From a virus, in the IMG/VR virus record IMGVR_UViG_3300024231_000071, positions 1 through 20,278 of that record: DNA of 20,278 bases; one strand, given 5' to 3'. Position numbers and translations under genes: made by a program. Within the stretch, counting starts at the first letter, position 1; each line of letters opens with the position of its first letter. The notes under the pieces were generated by a model that was not told the origin of the DNA, searched no databases, and saw only the letters and a program-made list of their open reading frames with translations. Positions 4,524 to 20,132 of the stretch are shown here, in pieces.

Positions 4524-4552
4524 TTGGTATAATTAATATTTATATTTGTGTA
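4524..4552 (+). promoter_or_regulatory. phage intergenic promoter element, copy before prohead protease
   Basis: The element is TTG (4524-4526), 14 nt, TATATTTG (4541-4548), then TGTA. It matches the element at 9959-9987 at 27 of 29 positions. The TATATTTG half is a perfect Bacteroidota -7 box. The TTG spacing of 14 nt is 5 nt shorter than in the tRNA promoter in this window. The box ends only 5 nt before the protease ATG at 4554. Confidence 0.6.
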
Positions 4553-7502: not shown

Positions 7503-8999
7503 ATGAGCATAAAGGGAAATGCTGAAGTCATAAGAGATGAAACAGCAACAGGCGCAAATACAGCCGCTAGAGTAGGGAGTAACTTGGTTGAAATCGCAAA
7601 TGATTTAATAGATAAAAATGCACTAATATCTGCAAACTCTTCAAAGGTTGGTTATACAGATGCTCTGGTAGCAGCAGCACCAAGTGTAACAACTAATGGA
7701 ACAAATATTGCAACCAATGCAACCAATATTGCAAATAATGCGACTAATATATCATCTAACGATGTTGACATCGCTGCAAATGTGGCAAATATTGCTGCAA
7801 ATACTTCAGGGGTAGCATCGAATCTCAATTCACTGAGTACAAAAGTAAATACCTCTTCTATTGTAAATGATTTGACAACAGGAGGAGCTGCGGTGCCATT
7901 GTCTGCACAGCAAGGTGTTGCTTTAAAAGCATTAATTGATTCAGGGGGTGTTGTTCCAATAAACAATTTAACCTCTACAAGTGCTACAATTCCTTTGGCA
8001 GCAAACCAAGGGCGTGTTTTAAAAGGCTTGGTAGATGGTAATACCTCAAACATAACAACCAACACTTCTGGAGTTGCAACCAATACCTCAGGTGTTGCAA
8101 CCAATGTATCTAACATAGCAACCAATACTTCTGGTGTTGCAACTAATACTTCAGGTATTGCAACCAATGTATCTAATATTGCAACCAATACTTCAGGAGT
8201 CGCAACTAATGTAACAAACATAGCAACCAACACCTCAGGAGTTGCTACTAATGTAACTAATATTGCAACCAATACTTCTGGAGTTGCAACCAATGTAACA
8301 AACATAGCAACCAATGTAACAAACATAGCAACCAATACCTCTGGAGTTGCAACCAATGTAACAAATATTGCTACAAATACCGCTGCAATAGCAACTATAG
8401 GAGGTGCATTTACAGGAGGTATTTGGAACGGTTATACCTATCAAACAGTTACTTCTCCTACAACAGGTCGTGTATGGCTCGATCGAAATTTAGGAGCGAA
8501 CAATGTCGCTGGAAGTTCTAATGATAGCAACGCTTACGGATTCTTATACCAATTTGGTCGAAAAGACGATGGTCATCAACTGAGAAATTCAAGTACTGTA
8601 AGTACAAAATTAAATAGTGTTTATTCTCCAAGCGATTTGTTCGTGATTAACAGTTCGGATTGGGCTAATAATTTCAATTATAAAGTTTGGCTAGAGGATT
8701 GGGAGGGACTACAATTGAATAGCGTTGCACCTAAAGGGTTTCGCTTACCAACACAAACAGAATTCTACAATGAGATTGCAGGATTCTCATCAAGTGATAC
8801 AAGTGGAGCTTTTGCAAGCTTTTTAAAGTTACCAATCAATAAATCGAGGTCATATATAAACGGATCAATCAGTACTGCTGCCGAGGCTTATTTGTGGTGC
8901 AGTGATCGTGTCGCTGTTCAAATTACAAGTTCTAATATAACGTATCCCGGTGTAGTCCTTGGAACGGGTTGTGGTGTAAGATTGATCAAAGATAATTAA
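7503..8999 (+). CDS. fibre protein with heptad-repeat shaft and FISUMP head
   Basis: This 498-aa protein looks like a trimeric fibre. Residues 1-60 are a capsid- or tail-binding N-terminus. Residues 60-110 hold NIAxN repeats. Two related modules follow (about 119-146 and 154-178), each with the pattern LTxxxAxxPLxAxQGxxLKxL(I/V)D seen in phage fibres. Residues 181-299 are 17 heptads, mostly TSGVATN alternating with V(S/T)NIATN. The C-terminus (about 306-498) is a FISUMP (Fibrobacter major paralogous) domain: YQTVTSPTTGRVWLDRNLGA, AYGFLYQFGR, APKGFRLPTQTEF and the ending GCGVRLIKDN. FISUMP domains are often surface or ligand-binding, so receptor or polysaccharide binding is likely. It lies between connector and tail-completion genes rather than in the tail-tip block, so it might be a head or neck fibre. 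Confidence 0.85.
   Translation: MSIKGNAEVIRDETATGANTAARVGSNLVEIANDLIDKNALISANSSKVGYTDALVAAAPSVTTNGTNIATNATNIANNATNISSNDVDIAANVANIAANTSGVASNLNSLSTKVNTSSIVNDLTTGGAAVPLSAQQGVALKALIDSGGVVPINNLTSTSATIPLAANQGRVLKGLVDGNTSNITTNTSGVATNTSGVATNVSNIATNTSGVATNTSGIATNVSNIATNTSGVATNVTNIATNTSGVATNVTNIATNTSGVATNVTNIATNVTNIATNTSGVATNVTNIATNTAAIATIGGAFTGGIWNGYTYQTVTSPTTGRVWLDRNLGANNVAGSSNDSNAYGFLYQFGRKDDGHQLRNSSTVSTKLNSVYSPSDLFVINSSDWANNFNYKVWLEDWEGLQLNSVAPKGFRLPTQTEFYNEIAGFSSSDTSGAFASFLKLPINKSRSYINGSISTAAEAYLWCSDRVAVQITSSNITYPGVVLGTGCGVRLIKDN
8043..8399 (+). repeat. in-frame 21-nt tandem repeat array in the fibre gene
   Basis: There are 17 imperfect 21-nt units encoding heptads of the form TSGVATN or V(S/T)NIATN, often paired as 42-nt units. 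Synonymous differences (e.g. aatacttct, aatacctca, aacacttct for NTS) show that the copies are not fresh duplications. The array forms the fibre shaft. Confidence 0.9.
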
Positions 9000-10010: not shown

Positions 10011-10445
10011 ATGAGTCAATTAATTAAAGGAGAGTTGGTCGTTCTTGATATATGGGATGGATCTGCTTACAAGCCAGTTGGGGGGCTAACCTCAAATACT
10101 TTAAGTGTTACAAGAAACATTATAGAAGCACAAATTAAAGACAATCCGGGAGTAATACTCAGACAAGCGGGTACTACAAGCTCTGAGATTTCTTTTGATG
10201 CAAACTATATAAAAACAGATTCGACAAAAACAGATTTTGATGCGATGTTGGCATTTATCAATACAGTTTCAGGAACTACTCAAACGTGGCGTATGTCTTC
10301 AGATCAAACAACTCCGGTTTATTACTATGGTACTGGAATTTTTGCAAGTTTAGAACTTACTTCTGCAAGTGGTGATGAGTTTGCAACTTACAGTGGTACA
10401 ATTCAAAACACAGGGTTAGTTGTTACAGTTGATCCAAACGCATAG
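10011..10445 (+). CDS. major tail tube protein (TP901-1 type)
   Basis: This 144-aa protein should form the hexameric rings of a flexible siphovirus tail. It shows the TP901-1-like tube pattern: a first strand LVVLDIWDGSAYKPVGGLTS, then NTLSVTRNIIEAQIKDNPG, a middle strand SSEISFDANYI, the helix FDAMLAFINTVSG, and the final strands GTGIFASLELTSASGDEF and ATYSGTIQNTGLV. The tube domain is complete and there is no Ig-like addition. The protein at 14887 has a related N-terminal domain with the same PVGxLxSNxL and DEFxxxS signatures. It has its own upstream promoter-like element and precedes the tail assembly chaperone. Confidence 0.88.
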   Translation: MSQLIKGELVVLDIWDGSAYKPVGGLTSNTLSVTRNIIEAQIKDNPGVILRQAGTTSSEISFDANYIKTDSTKTDFDAMLAFINTVSGTTQTWRMSSDQTTPVYYYGTGIFASLELTSASGDEFATYSGTIQNTGLVVTVDPNA

Positions 10446-10449
10446 ATGA

Positions 10450-10818
10450 ATGATACAAAATAGTATAAAATTAGATTTTGGATCTAAAAAGCTAGAGTTC
10501 TTTTTTGGCATGTCTTTTTTAGGCGAGTTTTTAGAAGAAGAAAAAACTGATGTTAAAGAAATTTATGCAAATATCAAGCGCAATCCTTATGGTTATGTTC
10601 CTGATTTAATGTACCGTAGTCACTTACACAATTGTAAGCGTAAAAAAGAGGATCCTAATTTAAAACCTTTTGAAATGGCTGATTTAATTGAAAGCTCAGG
10701 ACATTTTAAAGAAGGTTCGGAAAGTTTAAAGTTTATAGAGGTTTTTATGCAGTCTATTTTAGATGGATTGCCAGAACCAGAACCAGAAACAAAAAAAAGC
10801 AACTCAAAAAAAAAATAA
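10450..10818 (+). CDS. tail assembly chaperone, short form (gpG-like)
   Basis: The gene between tail tube and tape measure in long-tailed phages encodes a chaperone that coats the tape measure protein. The 122-aa product begins IKLDFGSKKLEFFFGMSFLGEFLEE, a familiar start for this class, is helical and charged, and ends in a proline/glutamate run followed by lysines. Near its 3' end are two A runs, A8 at 10791-10798 and A10 at 10806-10815, the second just before the stop TAA (10816-10818). Either can act as a slippery site, leading into the open -1 frame that continues to 11135. The ATG at 10450 is chosen; an ATG at 10446 is in another frame and stops at once. Confidence 0.82.
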   Translation: MIQNSIKLDFGSKKLEFFFGMSFLGEFLEEEKTDVKEIYANIKRNPYGYVPDLMYRSHLHNCKRKKEDPNLKPFEMADLIESSGHFKEGSESLKFIEVFMQSILDGLPEPEPETKKSNSKKK

Positions 10819-11135
10819 ACTGGAATGCTGATGTGGTTTCTCTTTGTTTAGGAGAATTCAACTGCTCTTATGAAGAATATTGTAATATGACATGGGCGGA
10901 GTTTCAACTTCGTCTTTTTGCTTTTAATAGGATGCAAAAAAGAGAATGGGAAAAGATTGCTGAACTCTCTACCAATATTATTATTGCTGGGTTTATCGAT
11001 GGAAAAGAAAAGAAAAAAAGAATTAACCAAATACAAAAAGCTTATTTAAACACCACTCCATCAAAAGGCATGAGTGAAGCAATGAAACAAGCAATTTTAA
11101 AAGCACAACAAGAATATAATAATAATAAAAAGTAA
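10806..11135 (+). CDS. tail assembly chaperone extension made by -1 frameshift (gpGT-like)
   Basis: This frame has no credible start of its own; the first GTG is at 10833 and no ATG lies before residue 19 of that reading. In the -1 frame relative to the short chaperone it is open through both A runs and gives KKKINWNADVVSLCLGEF across the shift, with INWxxDV immediately after the lysines as in known T extensions. The long form would be about 228 aa (121 from the first frame, 107 from the second). The extension has the helical pattern of T domains: YCNMTWAEFQLRLFAFNRMQKREWE, then lysine-rich helices. In lambda-like systems the T part binds the tape measure. The stop shares one base with the tape measure ATG (TAATG). 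Confidence 0.85.
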   Translation, partial: KKKINWNADVVSLCLGEFNCSYEEYCNMTWAEFQLRLFAFNRMQKREWEKIAELSTNIIIAGFIDGKEKKKRINQIQKAYLNTTPSKGMSEAMKQAILKAQQEYNNNKK

Positions 11136-12967
11136 TGGCAGAATTAAGTGTTGAGATAAACGGTAAAATGGACAAGCTTGATAAAGCCTTGTCTGATTCT
11201 GAAAAAGCTTTAAAACAATTTGATAAAAAAGCCAACAAGATTTCTAAAACAAATAGCAATCTAGGGTCAAGCTCAGTTTTAGCTGCCAAAGGAATGGGGA
11301 AACTTAGAGGGCAGGCCATTAACGGAAATGCTGCAATGACTGCTTTCAGTAGAACCATACAAGATGCACCTTTTGGTATCATGGGGGTCTCCAACAACAT
11401 TACCAACCTAACGGAACAATTTGGTTATTTAAAGAACAAAACAGGATCTGCTGGAGGTGCTTTAAAAGCAATGCTCAGAGATTTAAAAGGTTTTGGAGGA
11501 GTTACATTGGCAATATCATTGGCAACTTCTGCTCTAGTACTTTTTGGAGATAAATTATTTCAAACAAAAGACAAAACAAAAGAATTAAGAGATGAACAGG
11601 AGAGACTTACTAAGTCTTTAGATGACTATATTTTTGGGTTATCTGCTGTAGAAAAAGCCAATGTAAAAGGAGAACAAAATGCACAAAAAGAGTTAACTAC
11701 TTTAAAACTTTTAAAATCTCAAATAGAAAACACAACGTTATCTACTGAAAAGAGATTAGAGGCTGTTAGAGAAATTAGGAGAATTTATCCTTCATATTTT
11801 AAAGATATGTCGAATGAAAAAATTCTAAATGGAGGCTTGGCAACGACTTATGATACCTTAACTACTTCTATTTTAAATAGAGCCAAGGCGACTGCTGCTA
11901 CAAATATGATCGTTAAAAACAGCGAAAAGCTTATAGCTATAGAAGGTAAATTAGCAGTAAAGAGAGAAGAAAGACTTAAAGCAGAAAAAAAATATAATGC
12001 TGTATTAGATAATAATAAAAAAAGCGTTAATAATTACAGAGGTGCAGCAGTAGATAGTGCGTTTGCAGAATCAGGAGCTTTAAATGCTCTAAATAAATTA
12101 AGAGAAGAAGAAAATAAATTAATTGCTAAAAAACAAACCTTAGAATTAGCCAATATTGATTTAAATCAAACCATAGGAGATGTTGGTGGAATTACAATAC
12201 CTGTTACAACTACAGGGGAGGAAATAAGAGAAAAAGTAAAAAATGCTTTTGTAGATTTTAAAGAAACATACAAAGACGAAAAAGATTATTTTGAAGATTG
12301 GGTTGAAGAAGATCCAATAACTATAGCAGACAATGCAGAATGGAAATCAATTGATTGGGAAGCTTATTTTAATTCTAAACAATTTGAGGAGAAAGAACTT
12401 GAACTAAAAGCTAGATTAGAAAAGCTTAAAGAGGATATAAATAGTTTACCTGAACAAACTTTGGCTAGTGGAATTACTTCAATAGGTCAAAGTATAGGTC
12501 AAGCATTGGCAAACGGAACAAGTGTTATTGGTGCTGTTGGAATGTCGTTATTAAAGACACTAGGTAGCTTCTTATCTCAACTTGGTGCAAAGTTAATTTT
12601 ATATGGTGTTTTAGCAAAGAAAAAAGGAGCATTAGATGTTGCTATGCTTGCTGGTGGACCAGCGGCTATAATAGCAGGTGCTGCGGCTATTAAAATAGGA
12701 GTATTAGCTGTTGCTGCAGGTGCTGCTATTAGTGCTTTTGTTGGTAATGCTACTGGTTCTGGAGCAGGTGCAGGTAGTCAAGATAGCGGTTCTGTTTCAA
12801 CTGATACAAGTACTTTTTCTCCTAGTTCAAGTAGCTTCTCTGGAGGTGGATCATCAGGTGGTTTGCAAAATGTAGTGTTTGAAATACAAGGAACTAAATT
12901 AGTAGGCGTCTTGTCAAATACGCTTTCAAGAAACAGAGCTTTAGGTGGTTCATTAAGTCTTACATAA
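11135..12967 (+). CDS. tail tape measure protein
   Basis: The tape measure sets tail length and helps DNA enter the cell. At 610 aa it is short for the class, which by the 1.5 angstrom-per-residue rule suggests a tail of roughly 90 nm. Residues 1-45 form a lysine-rich coiled coil (MDKLDKALSDSEKALKQFDK). A hydrophobic segment (GGVTLAISLATSALVLFG) lies near 125-142. Long charged helices run to about 430. A second hydrophobic block near 465-550 (AVGMSLLKTLGSFLSQL, LILYGVLA, AAIIAGAAAIKIGVLAVAAG) is followed by a Gly/Ser linker and a small C-terminal domain LQNVVFEIQGTKLVGVLSNTLSRNR, common at the end of Bacteroidota tape measures. Position after the chaperone pair confirms the role. Confidence 0.88.
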   Translation: MAELSVEINGKMDKLDKALSDSEKALKQFDKKANKISKTNSNLGSSSVLAAKGMGKLRGQAINGNAAMTAFSRTIQDAPFGIMGVSNNITNLTEQFGYLKNKTGSAGGALKAMLRDLKGFGGVTLAISLATSALVLFGDKLFQTKDKTKELRDEQERLTKSLDDYIFGLSAVEKANVKGEQNAQKELTTLKLLKSQIENTTLSTEKRLEAVREIRRIYPSYFKDMSNEKILNGGLATTYDTLTTSILNRAKATAATNMIVKNSEKLIAIEGKLAVKREERLKAEKKYNAVLDNNKKSVNNYRGAAVDSAFAESGALNALNKLREEENKLIAKKQTLELANIDLNQTIGDVGGITIPVTTTGEEIREKVKNAFVDFKETYKDEKDYFEDWVEEDPITIADNAEWKSIDWEAYFNSKQFEEKELELKARLEKLKEDINSLPEQTLASGITSIGQSIGQALANGTSVIGAVGMSLLKTLGSFLSQLGAKLILYGVLAKKKGALDVAMLAGGPAAIIAGAAAIKIGVLAVAAGAAISAFVGNATGSGAGAGSQDSGSVSTDTSTFSPSSSSFSGGGSSGGLQNVVFEIQGTKLVGVLSNTLSRNRALGGSLSLT

Positions 12968-12968
12968 T

Positions 12969-14831
12969 ATGGCGTTAAAATATTGGTTTGAGTTTACGGA
13001 TATAAAAGAGATTATTCATCGAGTAGAGATTTCTAATACTGCTTTTACAGGAGCTTCGACACAAATTTATGGTCGTTGTTCTCTAGAAGTGTCTGAAACA
13101 AAAGACACGCTAGATGCTATTAGAGGGTCTGGTTTAAAAATAGAAATAGAAGCCAATTCTAACCTTACTTTTTACGACCTCTACAGCGAGGAGGAGCGGA
13201 CCTTTTCAGTAGTGTACAAAAGAAATAACCAAATCTTATTTAACGGTTGGTTGTCTCCAGAGGGTTTGTATGAAGATTATGTTGCGGACCATTGGATCAT
13301 CTCTTTAGACTGTACTGATGGCTTAGGGTTTTTGAATAATCTTTCTTACGTAGAGGATGCTACTGGTTTGACTTTTTCAGGAAAACAAACGCTGTTGGAA
13401 ATTGTTGTGAATTGCTTGAAAAGAACCAAAACACCTCAAAACATATTGACCTCTATTAATATCTATTATGTAGGCTTGTCTCAATCTGTAGATCCTTTTG
13501 TCAATGTATCATATAATGTAGATCGTTTTATAAAAGATGATGAGAAAACCATTATGAACTGTCAAGAGGTTTTAAAATCTGTGCTAGAACCATTTGGCGC
13601 TGTTCTTACAAGTTACAACGGTGAGTGGTTGATTTACAAACCAAATTCATTGGTAGATGCTTCATCACAAACGTTTTTCTCCTATAGTAATTTAGGGGTT
13701 GCGCTAAGTCCTACGACAAAAACCATTGATTTTTCTTTTGCTATCGGAAGTCAAATTGACAACTACTATCCGCATCATGTGAATGCAAACCAGCAAAAAT
13801 CTATTAAAAGTTCGATTGGTGCTTTTCGTATTAATTATAAATATGGATTGGTGAAATCGCTGTTAAGAAATATTGACTTGTACAGTGAAAACGGAGTGGT
13901 TGATAATTTTACAATTGATTCCTTGGCTACTTTGGTATTGCCTTCTCCAAATGGTTTTGGTGTGGGGATGCCTTTTAGTAATACTATAGCTAATGGTTTG
14001 AATATGACCTCGAATGCTTGTATTGTTGCCCTAGATGATGTACTCACTTTAAATATTGATTTTACGGTAGAACTTCCTTCTTTAGCTGGAACTTTTAAAT
14101 TTCAAATGGTTGTTTCAGATGTGGAGCTTCCAAATGCAGCAGCAGTAGTTTACCATCTACAAAATGACTTGTCCTGGAGTACAACTACTAACGGGATGAC
14201 TTTTAATTTCCAAAATAAAGCGAGTATTCTTCAGACGTTTAACTTAGCACCGATTCCTCAAAATGGATTTTTATATTTGTACATCCAAAAACCGCAACCA
14301 GTCTCATCAATACCGACTCAAAATACTGTAACAATTAATCAGTTATCATTAGTTCCTGAAGGAGATCGTTTAAGAAAGGAAGGGGAAAACCATACCTTCC
14401 AAAGAACATTAAAACCGTCTTCTAAAATCAAAGACATTAAAAAAGTATTTAACGGAGACAATCCTTCGCAGATTTATTTTGGAACAATTTACAAAGCCGA
14501 TCAAACAACTCCAACAGAGAATTGGACCAGATATGGTGCTTCTGAAACAAAACCAATCCTTCGCATTATGGGAGAGGAGCGCATGAAGATGTATGCTACT
14601 CCTTTGCAAGTTTTTAGCGGAGATGTCTATGGTTATTTTAATTATTTATCATTGGTCACTATCAATGGATTGACAGGGAAGTTTATGCCTACACGATACC
14701 AATACAATGCCTTTGACAACACTACTTCTTTAATTTTAACAGAGGTCTTAAATACGGATATTTTAAGTGATGTTGAATATCTTAACACCCCTGATTATGG
14801 TGAAGTTGTAGAGCCTACAATCAAGGGTTAA
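12969..14831 (+). CDS. putative distal tail / baseplate hub protein
   Basis: This 620-aa protein follows the tape measure, where distal tail (Dit-like) and hub (Tal-like) proteins are encoded. The first 100 residues look like a distal-tail-type beta domain (KYWFEFTDIKEIIHRVEI, then TFSVVYKRNNQILFNGWLSPE). Next comes a part with ISLDCTDGLGFLNNL and a helical LLEIVVNCLKRTKTP, then VLKSVLEPFGAVLTSYNGEWLIYKP, a block that recurs in Bacteroidota tail proteins. The middle (about 290-480) is a beta-rich, possibly carbohydrate-binding or jelly-roll insertion, and the end SLVTINGLTGKFMPTRYQYNAFDNTTSLILTEV resembles hub ends. No peptidase or lysozyme motif is visible. The exact family was not identified. 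Confidence 0.7.
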   Translation: MALKYWFEFTDIKEIIHRVEISNTAFTGASTQIYGRCSLEVSETKDTLDAIRGSGLKIEIEANSNLTFYDLYSEEERTFSVVYKRNNQILFNGWLSPEGLYEDYVADHWIISLDCTDGLGFLNNLSYVEDATGLTFSGKQTLLEIVVNCLKRTKTPQNILTSINIYYVGLSQSVDPFVNVSYNVDRFIKDDEKTIMNCQEVLKSVLEPFGAVLTSYNGEWLIYKPNSLVDASSQTFFSYSNLGVALSPTTKTIDFSFAIGSQIDNYYPHHVNANQQKSIKSSIGAFRINYKYGLVKSLLRNIDLYSENGVVDNFTIDSLATLVLPSPNGFGVGMPFSNTIANGLNMTSNACIVALDDVLTLNIDFTVELPSLAGTFKFQMVVSDVELPNAAAVVYHLQNDLSWSTTTNGMTFNFQNKASILQTFNLAPIPQNGFLYLYIQKPQPVSSIPTQNTVTINQLSLVPEGDRLRKEGENHTFQRTLKPSSKIKDIKKVFNGDNPSQIYFGTIYKADQTTPTENWTRYGASETKPILRIMGEERMKMYATPLQVFSGDVYGYFNYLSLVTINGLTGKFMPTRYQYNAFDNTTSLILTEVLNTDILSDVEYLNTPDYGEVVEPTIKG

Positions 14832-14853
14832 TTTCGCAATATTTATTTACACT

Positions 14854-14878
14854 TTGCAATAGTTTTTATCTATTTTTA
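14854..14878 (+). promoter_or_regulatory. phage intergenic promoter element, copy before the tube-LRR fusion gene
   Basis: The 55-nt gap 14832-14886 holds TTG (14854-14856), 14 nt, TATTTTTA (14871-14878). Spacing equals that of the two near-identical copies, though the last base of the -7 box differs (A for G). The ATG at 14887 follows after 8 nt. Confidence 0.5.
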
Positions 14879-14886
14879 CTTAAGTA

Positions 14887-16215
14887 ATGATAGATGGAAC
14901 TTATAATATACTATATATTAATGCAGGAGATGGGTTTTTTCCTGTTGGAAATTTAGTGTCTAATAGCTTAAATGAAAGCATTGATACAATTGACAGTACA
15001 ACCAGAGACAACGCAGGTTGGAAAACACAAACACTCACCAATCAAAGTTATAATTTAGAGTTTAATGGTTTGCTTTCAAACGCTATTAGTACCACAAAAA
15101 TTAACTACGAAACAATAAAAAACATAAAAAGAAACAAGCAGATCATTGATTGGAAAGTTTCTGACAACCAATTAAGTATCGAAGGAGGGAAAGCTCAAAT
15201 TACTTCTTTAAGTAATGAATCTAGTACAGATGAGTTTGTAAGTTTTTCCGCGAGTTTACAAGGATACGGAACTTTTAAAAATTACAAATTTGAATTCCAA
15301 GTAAATACTAGCAATACAGGAACAAGTAATAGCAATCAATTTACGCTTCCGTTAAATTCATCTTTTACTGGCAATATTAACGTTGATTGGGGGGATGGTA
15401 CAATAAATAATATTAGTTCATACAATCAAGCAGAAGTAACACATACATTTCCTTTTTCTGGAACTTATGATATTAAAATTTCAGGTGTAATCTCGGCTGG
15501 ATGGAGCTTTGGTAACACCGGGGATTGTAAAAAAATGGGTGATATTTCTAACTGGGGAGCTTTTTCATGTACCGCAACCAGTGCCTTTGCAGGATGCTCT
15601 AACATGACCTCTATTGGAAGCGATGTAGACTTTTTAAACCAAGCGGTTAATTTAAATGGATACTTTGATTTATGTGGCTTGCTAGGATTACCATCAACCT
15701 TGACTTTAGAAAAATTAGAGGAAGGCTTTCAGATGCTTCGATATAATTCAATCCCTATATTACCTTCAGGAATGCTACTGCATAATTTAAAAAATGGAGG
15801 TATAATGTTTAGAGGTAACCCTTTAACTTCTGGATTACCTGAGGGAATGGTATTAGAAAATGTAACAAACGCATTCTATATGTTTGAAGGATGTCAACTT
15901 CCAAATTTACCATCAACATTAACCTTATTGAATGTAGAAAATGCAAGTTATATGCTCAAAGGAAATTCAGTAACTGATATCCCATCAGGTGTAACATTAC
16001 CAAATTTAAATAATGGTGCAAATATGCTGACAGGAAACACCATAAACACCACAAGGTACTCTCAGTTATTAGTTGATTTAGAGAATTTAAATACCAACAA
16101 TAATTTTAGCTTCCATGGTGGGAACTCGCAATACAACACGACAGGGCAAACAGCTAGAAATATATTGACAGCTTCACCGCGAAATTTAACAATCACCGAT
16201 GGTGGCTTAGCATAA
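14887..16215 (+). CDS. tail-tube-like domain fused to PKD-like and leucine-rich surface repeats
   Basis: This 442-aa protein is a mosaic. Residues 1-130 resemble the tail tube protein at 10011: PVGNLVSNSLNESIDTIDSTTRDNAG and STDEFVSFSASLQGYG line up with PVGGLTSNTLSVTRNIIEAQIKDNPG-like and GDEFATYSGTIQNTG there. Residues about 150-200 look like a PKD/Ig domain: NINVDWGDGT, then VTHTFPFSGTYDIKISG. Residues 264-384 are five 24-25-residue leucine-rich repeats with consensus LPxxLxLxNLxNxxxMLxGN, as in BspA/DUF285-type surface proteins. The end (NSQYNTTGQTARNILTASP..LTITDGG) is also typical of these. It probably sits on or at the tip of the tail and contacts the host surface or environment; that role is inferred. 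No chaperone or enzyme motif is seen. Confidence 0.82.
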   Translation: MIDGTYNILYINAGDGFFPVGNLVSNSLNESIDTIDSTTRDNAGWKTQTLTNQSYNLEFNGLLSNAISTTKINYETIKNIKRNKQIIDWKVSDNQLSIEGGKAQITSLSNESSTDEFVSFSASLQGYGTFKNYKFEFQVNTSNTGTSNSNQFTLPLNSSFTGNINVDWGDGTINNISSYNQAEVTHTFPFSGTYDIKISGVISAGWSFGNTGDCKKMGDISNWGAFSCTATSAFAGCSNMTSIGSDVDFLNQAVNLNGYFDLCGLLGLPSTLTLEKLEEGFQMLRYNSIPILPSGMLLHNLKNGGIMFRGNPLTSGLPEGMVLENVTNAFYMFEGCQLPNLPSTLTLLNVENASYMLKGNSVTDIPSGVTLPNLNNGANMLTGNTINTTRYSQLLVDLENLNTNNNFSFHGGNSQYNTTGQTARNILTASPRNLTITDGGLA

Positions 16216-16219
16216 AAGT

Positions 16220-16420
16220 ATGAAAGGAAAAGAATTAAAATATCCGAAAAAAACAACCTATTATATCGCATGGGATAAAAAAGAAATAAAAGTGTATGGC
16301 TCAGTTTCGCCAAAAAATCATTTTACTACCCCATGGAAAAAAGTAGATTTTTATACAGATAAAGAAAAATGGCTAAAAGTCTTAGAAAAAAATGGAATTA
16401 AAATAGATGAATTAAAATAA
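16220..16420 (+). CDS. small hypothetical protein (66 aa)
   Basis: The ATG at 16220 follows the previous stop by 4 nt. The product (MKGKELKYPKKTTYYIAWDK..) is basic, with several aromatic residues, three beta-like strands (TTYYIAWDKKEIKVYGSV) and a C-terminal helix (EKWLKVLEKNGIKIDELK). There is no membrane segment or cysteine. I recognise no family. It lies between the last tail gene and the lysis block and may be a tail chaperone or lysis accessory. Confidence 0.65.
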   Translation: MKGKELKYPKKTTYYIAWDKKEIKVYGSVSPKNHFTTPWKKVDFYTDKEKWLKVLEKNGIKIDELK

Positions 16421-17561: not shown

Positions 17562-18803
17562 TTGAAACTAAGAAAAAGACTTTTTAAAGAAGAAGCTATT
17601 GAATTAGGGATTTCTCCAAAACCTGATGAGAAAGGGAGGAAAAATGCAAAGTATTATATTGAAGAAGGGGAGTGGAAGAAAATAAAAGAATATAGAGAAA
17701 ACTTTGGAACTCCTGTAACCACCGATACCAAAACCAACGAATACAAAGAGAAGTTTGTTTTATCCGCTTGGAACAAACAGACTGGGCAGATGATGGATAT
17801 TGATACCTATTGCTCTCACTATGCGTTACCTAGAGCTGACATTTCTTCTTATAAATTAGTTTCTCATACAGGAACTCCTTATTATAATATCGCTTTTAAA
17901 GAAAATGTTGCTGAAATTGTAAATGATTTTGATTTCGATAGTATCATCAAAAAATACATTCAACCGATTAAGCAAAAAAAACGTTCTCCTTTTAATACTA
18001 CCAAAGATTTTGACACCTTAACAATAACCGATGTTCACGTGGGGATGGATACTGATGCAGACAATAATACCATGTATCAAAATCCCTGGAATAAAAAAGA
18101 GCTGTTTAAAACTGCTGACATTATTATTGAGAAAACCTTGGAAGAGCAAGAAAGCGCTACCTTATATATAGATGACTTGGGTGACCTTCCGGATGGATAC
18201 AATGCACACACCACAAGAGGGGGTCATGCTTTGCCACAAAATATGACCAACGAAGAGTGTTTTAATAATGCGTTGGAGTTTAAATTGAAGATCTTATATG
18301 GCTTGGTTGATCATTATGATAAAATTTATTTTAATAATATCTGCAACGATAACCATGGTGGAAGCTTTACCTATTTTATCAATGAAGCTTTTAAACAGAT
18401 TGCAGAAGTTCAATATAAAAAAGTAAGTGTTACCAATCATCGTAAATTCATCAATCATTATTATATAGGTAAAATTTGCTTTGTAATTTCACATGGTAAA
18501 GACGATAAAAGTTTAAAGTTTGGTTTCAAACCTCAACTGGACCTAAAGGGTGCTGAGAAAATAGATCAGTACTGCAAACAAAATAAAATCTATAAAAAAG
18601 CGGATCTGGTAATCTTTAAAAAAGGAGATTCGCACCAAGCTTTATTTGATATGTGTTCTAGTGATGATTTCTTTTACTTTAACTACCCAGCTCTTTCTCC
18701 AAGCTCAAATTGGGTGAAAAATAATTTTAAGTTGGGTAGGAGGGGTTTTGTGAATGAATCTTTTAAGGGTTTGAAGAATTATGTAAAACCACACTTTATA
18801 TAA
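17562..18803 (+). CDS. metallophosphoesterase (calcineurin-like), possible nuclease
   Basis: All five metal-binding blocks of the calcineurin-like superfamily can be seen: D157-V-H159 (TITDVHVGM), G207-D208-LP-D211-G212, N262-D263-N264-H265 (in place of GNHD/E), S310-H311-G312 and G355-D356-S357-H358 (GxH-type). The 413-aa length and the 140-residue N-terminal extension point to a phage version, often annotated as DNA-repair exonuclease-like. The N-terminal part matches no family I know. Substrate (DNA or phosphodiester) is not determined. The start is TTG; the next methionines are residues 77-78, too late for the N-terminal domain. It is the last gene of the + strand block and overlaps the integrase stop by 8 nt tail-to-tail, with no terminator between. 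Confidence 0.8.
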   Translation: MKLRKRLFKEEAIELGISPKPDEKGRKNAKYYIEEGEWKKIKEYRENFGTPVTTDTKTNEYKEKFVLSAWNKQTGQMMDIDTYCSHYALPRADISSYKLVSHTGTPYYNIAFKENVAEIVNDFDFDSIIKKYIQPIKQKKRSPFNTTKDFDTLTITDVHVGMDTDADNNTMYQNPWNKKELFKTADIIIEKTLEEQESATLYIDDLGDLPDGYNAHTTRGGHALPQNMTNEECFNNALEFKLKILYGLVDHYDKIYFNNICNDNHGGSFTYFINEAFKQIAEVQYKKVSVTNHRKFINHYYIGKICFVISHGKDDKSLKFGFKPQLDLKGAEKIDQYCKQNKIYKKADLVIFKKGDSHQALFDMCSSDDFFYFNYPALSPSSNWVKNNFKLGRRGFVNESFKGLKNYVKPHFI

Positions 18804-20043
18804 TGACATCGATTTTCTCAGACCAATCTTTTGGAATATCCGCATCGATAGCATGAATATAATTCATCAATCCACTTTCAGAGCTATGCCCTGTTATCGG
18901 CATCAACTGTTGTATGGCTTGGTAAAAGCTTAAATTCTCTTTGGTTCGTAAGTGTCTGAATAAATTGGTTATATAAGAATGTCTAAAAGAATAGATGTTG
19001 TCTCCCTTTTCTAATTCAATGCCTTCTTGAACCATTTGTGATTTTAATCTTGTAAACCTACGAGTAATAACTCCTCTTCTTTGTGTATCAGATCCTTCCC
19101 ATTCTCCCGGTACTCCAGAAGGAGTAATTAAATATGAATCTTTGTCATAATTATGTAGGTTCATTTTTTTAAGACCATCTAATAATAAGGAAGGAATCCT
19201 TTTTGTTTTTAATGGTTTGTTTTTTGCCTGATAATAAAGCAAGGCTTCCTCCAAGTTTAAATCTTTTATTTTTAAACGACACACTTCCACAGGTCTTAAA
19301 AAATTATATGCCACAAATCGAATTACTAATAAGACAACCGGATCATTAACTTTTAAAAAATCGGTAATTTGTATTAGCTGTTTATTTGTAAGTGTTCTAT
19401 TTCTTCGATGCTTAACTTTTTCTTTCTCAATATTTTTGATAAAGTTGTAATCAATCAATAATAGCTTCTTTTCTAAGATTGTAAAAACAGCAGACAAATC
19501 TGTTCTATAATTATTTCTAGTTCTTGCAGAGGTTTTTTTAAGGACACCATTTAAATAGGTGATTACAATTTTACGAGTGACCAATTTAATGTCCTTGAAT
19601 TGGTTGTGCTTCCCTAAAAATTTTAGAAAATGATTTGATGTTTTTTTATAGTTACCGTAAGTGTTCGGAGTAACGGTAGATTTTGCAATTTCTAAAGCTT
19701 GGTCAATAGCTTCTTTTACTGATGTTGATGTTTCTTTTTCTTTTTGACCTATATTAATGACTTCTTTATCATTATATGGTACATGACCATTTTTTAAAAC
19801 TTTAATCAATTTTTTTTTGATATACTTCAGGACTTTTAATCGCTCATTTTTAGTCTTAAATGAATTTACACCACCATGGATATTGTTTTTCCTTTCTAAT
19901 TTTCCTGTCAAGGGGTTTCTATAAGACCATCGAAGATACCAAGATTTAGATAGAGCAATTGATTTTTCTTTTTTAGTTAATTTATCCCATTGATCAATTT
20001 TCACTCCTCCTGTATAAAATCCGATTGAGTATTTTTTTGACAT
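18796..20043 (-). CDS. int: tyrosine recombinase / phage integrase
   Basis: This enzyme integrates and excises the prophage. From the ATG at 20043 (MSKKYSIGFYTGG) it has 415 aa. The N-terminal arm-binding part contains YLRWSYRNPLTGK; a SAM-like core-binding domain follows (ALEIAKSTVTPNTYGNYKKT). The catalytic domain has Arg250 in FLRPVEVCRL, a beta-strand Lys near 281 (KTKRIPS), YSFR354-H355 (the HxxRH box with Tyr in place of the first His), GH386SS and the nucleophile Tyr395 in NYIHA. Longer starts exist at ATG 20097 and GTG 20130; homologues known to me begin near (K)KKYS..YTGG, favouring 20043. The reading is leftward, away from the tRNA. The leader holds an inverted repeat (20102-20132). 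Confidence 0.93.
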   Translation of the reverse strand: MSKKYSIGFYTGGVKIDQWDKLTKKEKSIALSKSWYLRWSYRNPLTGKLERKNNIHGGVNSFKTKNERLKVLKYIKKKLIKVLKNGHVPYNDKEVINIGQKEKETSTSVKEAIDQALEIAKSTVTPNTYGNYKKTSNHFLKFLGKHNQFKDIKLVTRKIVITYLNGVLKKTSARTRNNYRTDLSAVFTILEKKLLLIDYNFIKNIEKEKVKHRRNRTLTNKQLIQITDFLKVNDPVVLLVIRFVAYNFLRPVEVCRLKIKDLNLEEALLYYQAKNKPLKTKRIPSLLLDGLKKMNLHNYDKDSYLITPSGVPGEWEGSDTQRRGVITRRFTRLKSQMVQEGIELEKGDNIYSFRHSYITNLFRHLRTKENLSFYQAIQQLMPITGHSSESGLMNYIHAIDADIPKDWSEKIDVII

Positions 20044-20101
20044 AATATGGGTCTTTAAAAAAGTGTAGTCTAGAGTGTACTTCTTGGGTTTTGGCATGAT
20101 T

Positions 20102-20132
20102 GAGTGGTTTATGTTTTGAGTATAAACCACTC
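20102..20132. repeat. perfect 11-bp inverted repeat between tRNA and integrase
   Basis: GAGTGGTTTAT (20102-20112) and ATAAACCACTC (20122-20132) are exact inverted copies with a 9-nt spacer. It begins 21 nt past the tRNA 3' end. No T run follows in the tRNA transcription direction, so a tRNA terminator is doubtful. It may be an integrase operator, a recombinase core or arm site, or an RNA hairpin in the integrase leader. Beside it, TTGATATA (20140-20133, - strand) resembles the start of the phage promoter element. Confidence 0.6.

Follow-up and report, generated by a model that had tools for sequence, protein, structure and literature searches.

A tail-tube-fold protein fused to a PKD-like domain and leucine-rich repeats as a probable tail-tip adaptor in a relative of flavobacterial siphophages

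Little is known of the parts with which flavobacterial siphophages bind their receptors. In phage lambda, gpM has the topology of the gpV tube domain and forms a ring that anchors the trimeric tail tip to the hexameric tube (PMC10721106). Tube folds with an externally displayed C-terminal domain, the arrangement considered here, are known from lambda gpV, T5 pb6, and SPP1 gp17.1* (PMC8718954); unlike the protein described below, these are major tube proteins, and their displayed domains are Ig-like or FN3 domains without leucine-rich repeats. BspA/DUF285/PARCEL proteins (PMC2996958) stand alone in many phages, and the phage forms share a PKD-like start, a repeat solenoid, and a TITDGG cap.

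We analyzed a virus sequence of 20,278 nucleotides (IMG/VR record IMGVR_UViG_3300024231_000071), which is called the window in its whole length. An uninterrupted open reading frame at 14887-16215 encodes a protein of 442 amino acids, termed T2, which is fused from domains of several kinds. The major tail-tube protein encoded in the same window is termed T1.

14887..16215, plus strand: T2, a fusion of tail-tube domain, PKD-like domain, leucine-rich repeats (LRR), and C-terminal cap, 442 aa
14887..15276, plus strand: tail-tube domain of T2, aa 1-130 (PF06199, PHROG 1407, Foldseek)
15325..15501, plus strand: PKD-like domain, aa ~147-205 (sub-threshold PF18911/PF00801; shared with related cassettes; low-confidence model)
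15688..16050, plus strand: five leucine-rich repeats of 24-25 residues, aa 268-388 (period 24, pLDDT about 90-97)
16051..16212, plus strand: C-terminal cap ending TITDGGLA, aa 389-442 (common to the same cassette in many phages)
10011..10445, plus strand: T1, major tail-tube protein and paralogue of T2 (PF06199, PHROG 1407, tree)

A first-pass annotation had noticed a resemblance of residues 1-130 to the tube protein encoded at 10011, and profiles and alignment agree with it. The shared motifs lie at residues 19 (PVGNLVSNSL), 41 (DNAG), and 115 (DEFVSFS). Residues 4-130 match PF06199 (Phage_tail_2) with 38.7 bits against a gathering cut-off of 23.8 (E=1.3e-9), and the domain also matches PHROG 1407, major tail protein (E=5.5e-18). 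T1 matches the same two families, the direct alignment of T2 with T1 has 28% identity (E=8e-8), and a T2 profile retrieves the tube proteins of the family with E-values of about 1e-9 to 1e-26. The equivalog cut-off of TIGR02126 (TP901-1 major tail protein) was missed by T2, with 26.1 versus 37 bits. An AlphaFold model of T2 was built from 48 sequences (pTM 0.56), with pLDDT of about 80-93 over most of the tube domain and about 90-97 over most of the repeats and the cap; it falls to about 60 or less in the PKD-like region and in the residues that follow, so that the model describes the single domains rather than their mutual placement. The predicted fold of residues 1-130 is that of a tail tube: the monocin tail tube (8qhs/9j1j/9j1k) heads the Foldseek matches (best E=5.4e-6), which also include the GTA tube, the lambda tube, and further siphophage tubes. 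Judged from sequence, residues 1-130 of T2 are homologous to T1. The idea of a tube-fold docking module with a displayed repeat domain is upheld; tube homology is found by profile and by fold, and the PKD-like domain, repeats, and cap follow behind.

The PKD-like stretch contains WGDG and HTY-type motifs (VDWGDGT at residue 166 and THTF...GTYDIKISG at 185-200), as the first-pass annotation had pointed out, but PKD models stay below their cut-offs. PF18911 scores 15.2 bits in T2 against a cut-off of 27, 18.1 in a sister phage, and 21.8 in L025, which carries a relative of the cassette. We consider the PKD-like stretch to be real but sub-threshold. The five LPxxLxLxNLxN...MLxGN units start at residues 268, 292, 317, 341, and 365, and their self-identity of 27% at lag 24 was reached by none of 5000 shuffles. 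No LRR, DUF285 (PF03382), or PARCEL (TIGR02167) model matches the repeats of the window, nor does any library family recognise them; the label "BspA-like" lacks a direct model match but is justified through relatives of the same cassette, as L025 scores 201 bits with PF03382 and also matches TIGR02167. In the viral structure library, the C-terminal part of T2 resembles a protein with a PKD domain from Synechococcus phage S-SKS1 (TM-score 0.56, by target length).

The succession of a PKD-like domain, repeats, and a TITDGG cap is widespread, with a relative encoded in at least 425 viral contig stretches; it is also found in the form of separate phage proteins. The repeats of these relatives are of the DUF285/BspA type where tested, and 104 phage records contain a match to the DUF285-type module. 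Among the best 80 of the at least 425 relatives in virus contigs, no tube fusion was found besides that of the sister phage. A head-completion-like N-terminus precedes a PKD-DUF285 cassette in L120, L132, L135, L136, L139, L143, L152, L153, and L156; the head-completion domain PF05521 reaches E=1.4e-8 in L120 and is Pfam-confirmed in L120 alone. In these contigs, the same adhesin-like cassette is grafted at the neck of other phages.

Scans for the tube domain of T2 yielded 63 loci on virus contigs plus 2 from Chryseobacterium genomes, and 55 of the T2 sequences, including that of the window, are distinct. In host genomes of the sampled order, the domain occurs in 2 of 398, and none was found on plasmids; LRR fusions of T2 were seen in virus records only, with the searches of host genomes and plasmids included. 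Nearly all T2 proteins are short (134-172 aa), and most end in a small tail, e.g., LLNNGDPSVIVQDGNTNLIKV. L063:5995-7497 encodes a T2 with a different long extension (500 aa, with a very weak CBM_6 match), and L063 retains a 482-aa gene downstream. Family members include Cellulophaga phage phi10:1 gp089, annotated by similarity alone with several neighbours detected by mass spectrometry, and Flavobacterium phage 11b gp44. These two orthologues (NC_021802.1 gp089 and NC_006356.2 PHG11b_44) carry the database label "major tail protein" or "phage tail protein"; our analysis suggests that they are tip adaptors rather than the major tube protein. In a tree with 35 T1 sequences from the same contigs, T1 and T2 form two separate clades with support of 100/100. 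This makes T2 a paralogue of long standing that has become fixed, rather than a stray duplicate, and a recent duplication of the tube gene was rejected on the same family-wide ground.

The position of T2 in the tail operon is defined by its upstream neighbours.

11135..12967, plus strand: tape-measure protein, 610 aa, ending directly 5' of the hub gene (position and length; phi10:1 gene order)
12969..14831, plus strand: tail hub, Mu gp44-like, with a carbohydrate-binding-module-like insert (model pLDDT 88, Foldseek)
14832..14886, plus strand: region upstream of T2, with a flavobacterial -7 box in relatives that is degenerate in the window

The T2 gene had been described as lying after the hub gene, and the protein of 12969-14831 indeed models as a Mu gp44-like hub, with the MuSo2 43 kDa tail protein and Mu gp44 as top Foldseek matches. 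The hub model also matches CBM16, CBM22, and CBM4, with an insert at an estimated range of residues ~295-480, which suggests that the predicted hub carries a sugar-binding-like insert. At 55 loci, including the window, a gene longer than 500 codons ends at most 81 nt upstream of the T2 start. The remaining loci are truncated upstream, are broken (L046, L076), or have an extra gene (L032, L033, L035); in the last three, one gene of 348-349 aa separates the hub-size gene from T2, which counts against an adaptor role. No gene lies between the tape measure and the hub in the window, and T2 is therefore the only tube-fold candidate seen for a distal ring. After the tube gene, at 10450-11135, two frames overlap, the first ending at 10818 and the second open from 10710, with an A-run at the junction; a -1 frameshift giving tail chaperones of the gpG/gpGT type is likely.

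T2 had also been credited with its own copy of a promoter element. The exact element AATATTTATATTTGTGTA, located at 4535 and 9970 ahead of the 4548 and 10011 genes, is absent before 14887, and only the shorter AATATTTAT is shared. A flavobacterial -7 box, TAnnTTTG, stands ahead of T2 in 28 of 46 relatives versus 2.0 expected, which makes a T2 promoter a trait of the family. In the window, the box is degenerate (TATTTTTA, or TTTACACTTTGC further upstream), and across the whole window TAnnTTTG occurs at chance level (27 seen versus 31.2 expected).

On balance, we favour the interpretation that T2 is a tail-tip adaptor resembling lambda gpM, whose fused PKD-LRR crown takes over the binding to the host surface. 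The precedent of the gpM ring and the lack of a gene between tape measure and hub lead us to read T2 as the distal tail protein. As in lambda, the major tube protein has a separate tube-fold paralogue that is encoded with the hub; against the likeness, the T2 gene follows the hub gene and lambda M precedes it. The tube-fold N-terminus of T2 would assemble into a ring where the tail tube ends, and would hold the trimeric Mu gp44-like hub. In relatives, tip proteins and fibres have genes of their own, and the short C-terminal tail of T2 probably serves as their anchor. In the phage of the window, a PKD-like stalk, an LRR solenoid, and a conserved end cap would replace this short tail and the fibres, so that the ring itself might bear a crown of adhesins for binding to the host surface. 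We infer the ring position, the copy number (six or three), and receptor binding; the last is indicated indirectly by the absence of downstream fibre genes and the divergence of the repeats. The first-pass annotation had left the choice between a minor ring and a tail-tip adhesin open, and the tail tip is favoured, as T2 is an ancient, hub-adjacent paralogue that is 95% identical between the window and its sister phage and normally has fibre-size genes behind it. Its further suggestion of mucus binding finds nothing that supports mucus in particular.

The genes downstream of T2 distinguish the fusions from the short forms. Among loci of short T2 with at least 1.5 kb of downstream sequence, 37 of 37 have a gene of at least 225 aa (median 646) starting within 1.3 kb downstream. 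At the three LRR-fusion loci (the window, its sister L013, and L024), no downstream gene exceeds 147 aa; instead, a small homologous ORF is followed by an M15 peptidase and a 147-aa protein.

16220..16420, plus strand: 66-aa ORF at the place of the tail-tip/fibre gene of relatives (with a homologue, 42%, behind the other LRR fusion as well)

The PKD-LRR fusion is confined to two lineages, exactly those without downstream genes of tail-tip or fibre size; one or two events may underlie this association. In the tree of T2 domains, a clade that joins L024 to the window and its sister is rejected (p-AU 1e-4), despite the related downstream genes. We do not claim two clearly independent LRR fusions, as a related downstream ORF, the M15 peptidase, and the 147-aa gene occur in both lineages; a single cassette exchanged at the tube/PKD boundary would be as likely as two independent fusions. 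The tube anchor and the display cassette thus seem to have evolved along separate paths, which is what recombination at the point where they join would produce.

The comparison of the window with its sister phage separates the parts of T2 further. For tube domain, linker with PKD, repeats, cap, and hub, dN is 0.020, 0.103, 0.222, 0.008, and 0.016, and dS is 0.26, 0.40, 0.84, 0.29, and 0.22, respectively. The repeats have an omega of 0.26 with dS also raised, and the N-terminus of T2 has a dN/dS of 0.08. We did not adopt positive selection on the repeats, given their omega and raised dS; recombinational exchange is the safer reading. Divergence in the repeats is many times that of the parts on either side, and with dS raised as well it fits a repeat segment that might have been exchanged while anchor and cap stayed in place. 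Identity between the two phages is 39-40% for T1, 95% for the tube domain of T2, and 97% for the hub. T1 (10011-10445 in the window and L013:1000-1437 in the sister) seems to have been replaced by recombination, as the flanking structural genes are far more alike. Among 29 phages, the partial distance correlations are 0.52 for T2 and hub given T1, 0.58 for T1 and T2 given the hub, and 0.03 for T1 and hub given T2. This pattern is expected if T2 touches both T1 and the hub, with the limit that the bootstrap interval of the difference between the T2-hub and T1-hub correlations includes zero. As far as such sequence distances tell, the inheritance of T2 follows that of the hub rather than that of the tube.

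Other roles have to be weighed against that of a tip adaptor with a built-in adhesin. T2 has the same fold as T1, and it could be a minor tube subunit among the T1 rings with the PKD-LRR part as a non-essential decoration, comparable to the Ig-like and FN3 domains of lambda gpV, T5 pb6, and SPP1 gp17.1*; C-terminal Ig-like decorations of tubes are well known and dispensable in some phages (PMC8718954). The known decorations, however, sit on the major tube protein itself, and T2 is an ancient hub-side paralogue, mostly undecorated in its family, that has remained almost unchanged while T1 was replaced, which makes this role unlikely. The idea of a host-surface adhesin, exported or lipoprotein-like and acquired by lysogenic conversion, with an incidental tube domain, could draw on the frequency of DUF285/PARCEL repeats in bacterial surface proteins (PMC2996958) and on an integrase-like gene at 18796-20130, read from the sequence. 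It is highly improbable: a signal peptide is not apparent in T2, the gene lies within the tail operon, and the N-terminus is under strong purifying selection and orthologous to short tail proteins.

The most serious rival concerns the function of the repeats, though not the position of T2.

7503..8999, plus strand: 498-aa fibre-like protein in the neck gene region, a possible alternative receptor-binding protein (PF22337, weak FISUMP)

T2 would still form the distal ring, but its PKD-LRR part would merely stabilize the tip or weakly bind sugars, and the true receptor-binding protein would be this fibre, which has fibre repeats (PF22337) and a weak lectin-like FISUMP C-terminus. Among the head-tail regions compared, a gene occurs at that place only in two LRR-fusion phages: a fibre-like gene lies between the head-completion and tail-completion genes in the window and in the other LRR-fusion phage (L161:3395-4009), and the three phages with a short T2 whose head regions were inspected (L160, L162, L164) lack it. 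Yet the gene is located among head-completion genes rather than tail-tip genes, its product is 91% identical in the sister phages and varies less than the LRR, and the fast divergence of the LRR between a constant anchor and a constant cap is left unexplained. We hold this division of roles to be rather unlikely.

Returning to the tip adaptor, a more far-reaching scheme is possible but doubtful. The PKD-LRR part on the tube-fold tip ring might be a swappable unit that replaces a whole fibre operon, recombines between constant anchor and cap, and thereby changes host specificity; the cassette would also move onto other ring proteins, e.g., those of head completion. Under the favoured interpretation, a second tube-like protein labelled "major tail protein" in the database (11b gp44) gets a likely place as tip adaptor, and the phage of the window appears to manage without separate tail fibres, with leucine-rich repeats borne on the adaptor. 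The portable PKD-repeat-cap cassette on many virion proteins is open to systematic search.

Compared with known systems, T2 is closest in design to lambda gpM (PMC10721106), having the gpV-N tube fold in a protein separate from the major tube protein, and gpM is expected to link the hexameric tube with the trimeric hub. Unlike T2, gpM is a protein of 109 aa without an adhesin, encoded before the hub, and the likeness comes without a sequence match. The proteins phi10:1 gp089 and 11b gp44 are orthologues of the tube domain of T2 (about 40% identity), encoded directly after the hub gene; in contrast to T2 of the window, they are short, have no PKD-LRR part, and are followed by tail-tip or fibre genes. 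From the BspA/DUF285/PARCEL proteins, the window differs by its repeats of 24-25 aa, which the models do not match, and by its tube anchor, the cassette elsewhere usually sitting on short N-termini. The fusions of PF05521 head-completion domains with PKD-DUF285 in L120 and similar contigs likewise put a cassette of this kind on a virion protein that forms rings; they anchor it at the neck, whereas the T2 fusion would do so at the tail tip. In the open papers, we found no description of a T2-type tube domain combined with PKD-LRR. The parts are known, but their combination and the apparent replacement of fibre genes are apparently new as far as our searches reach.
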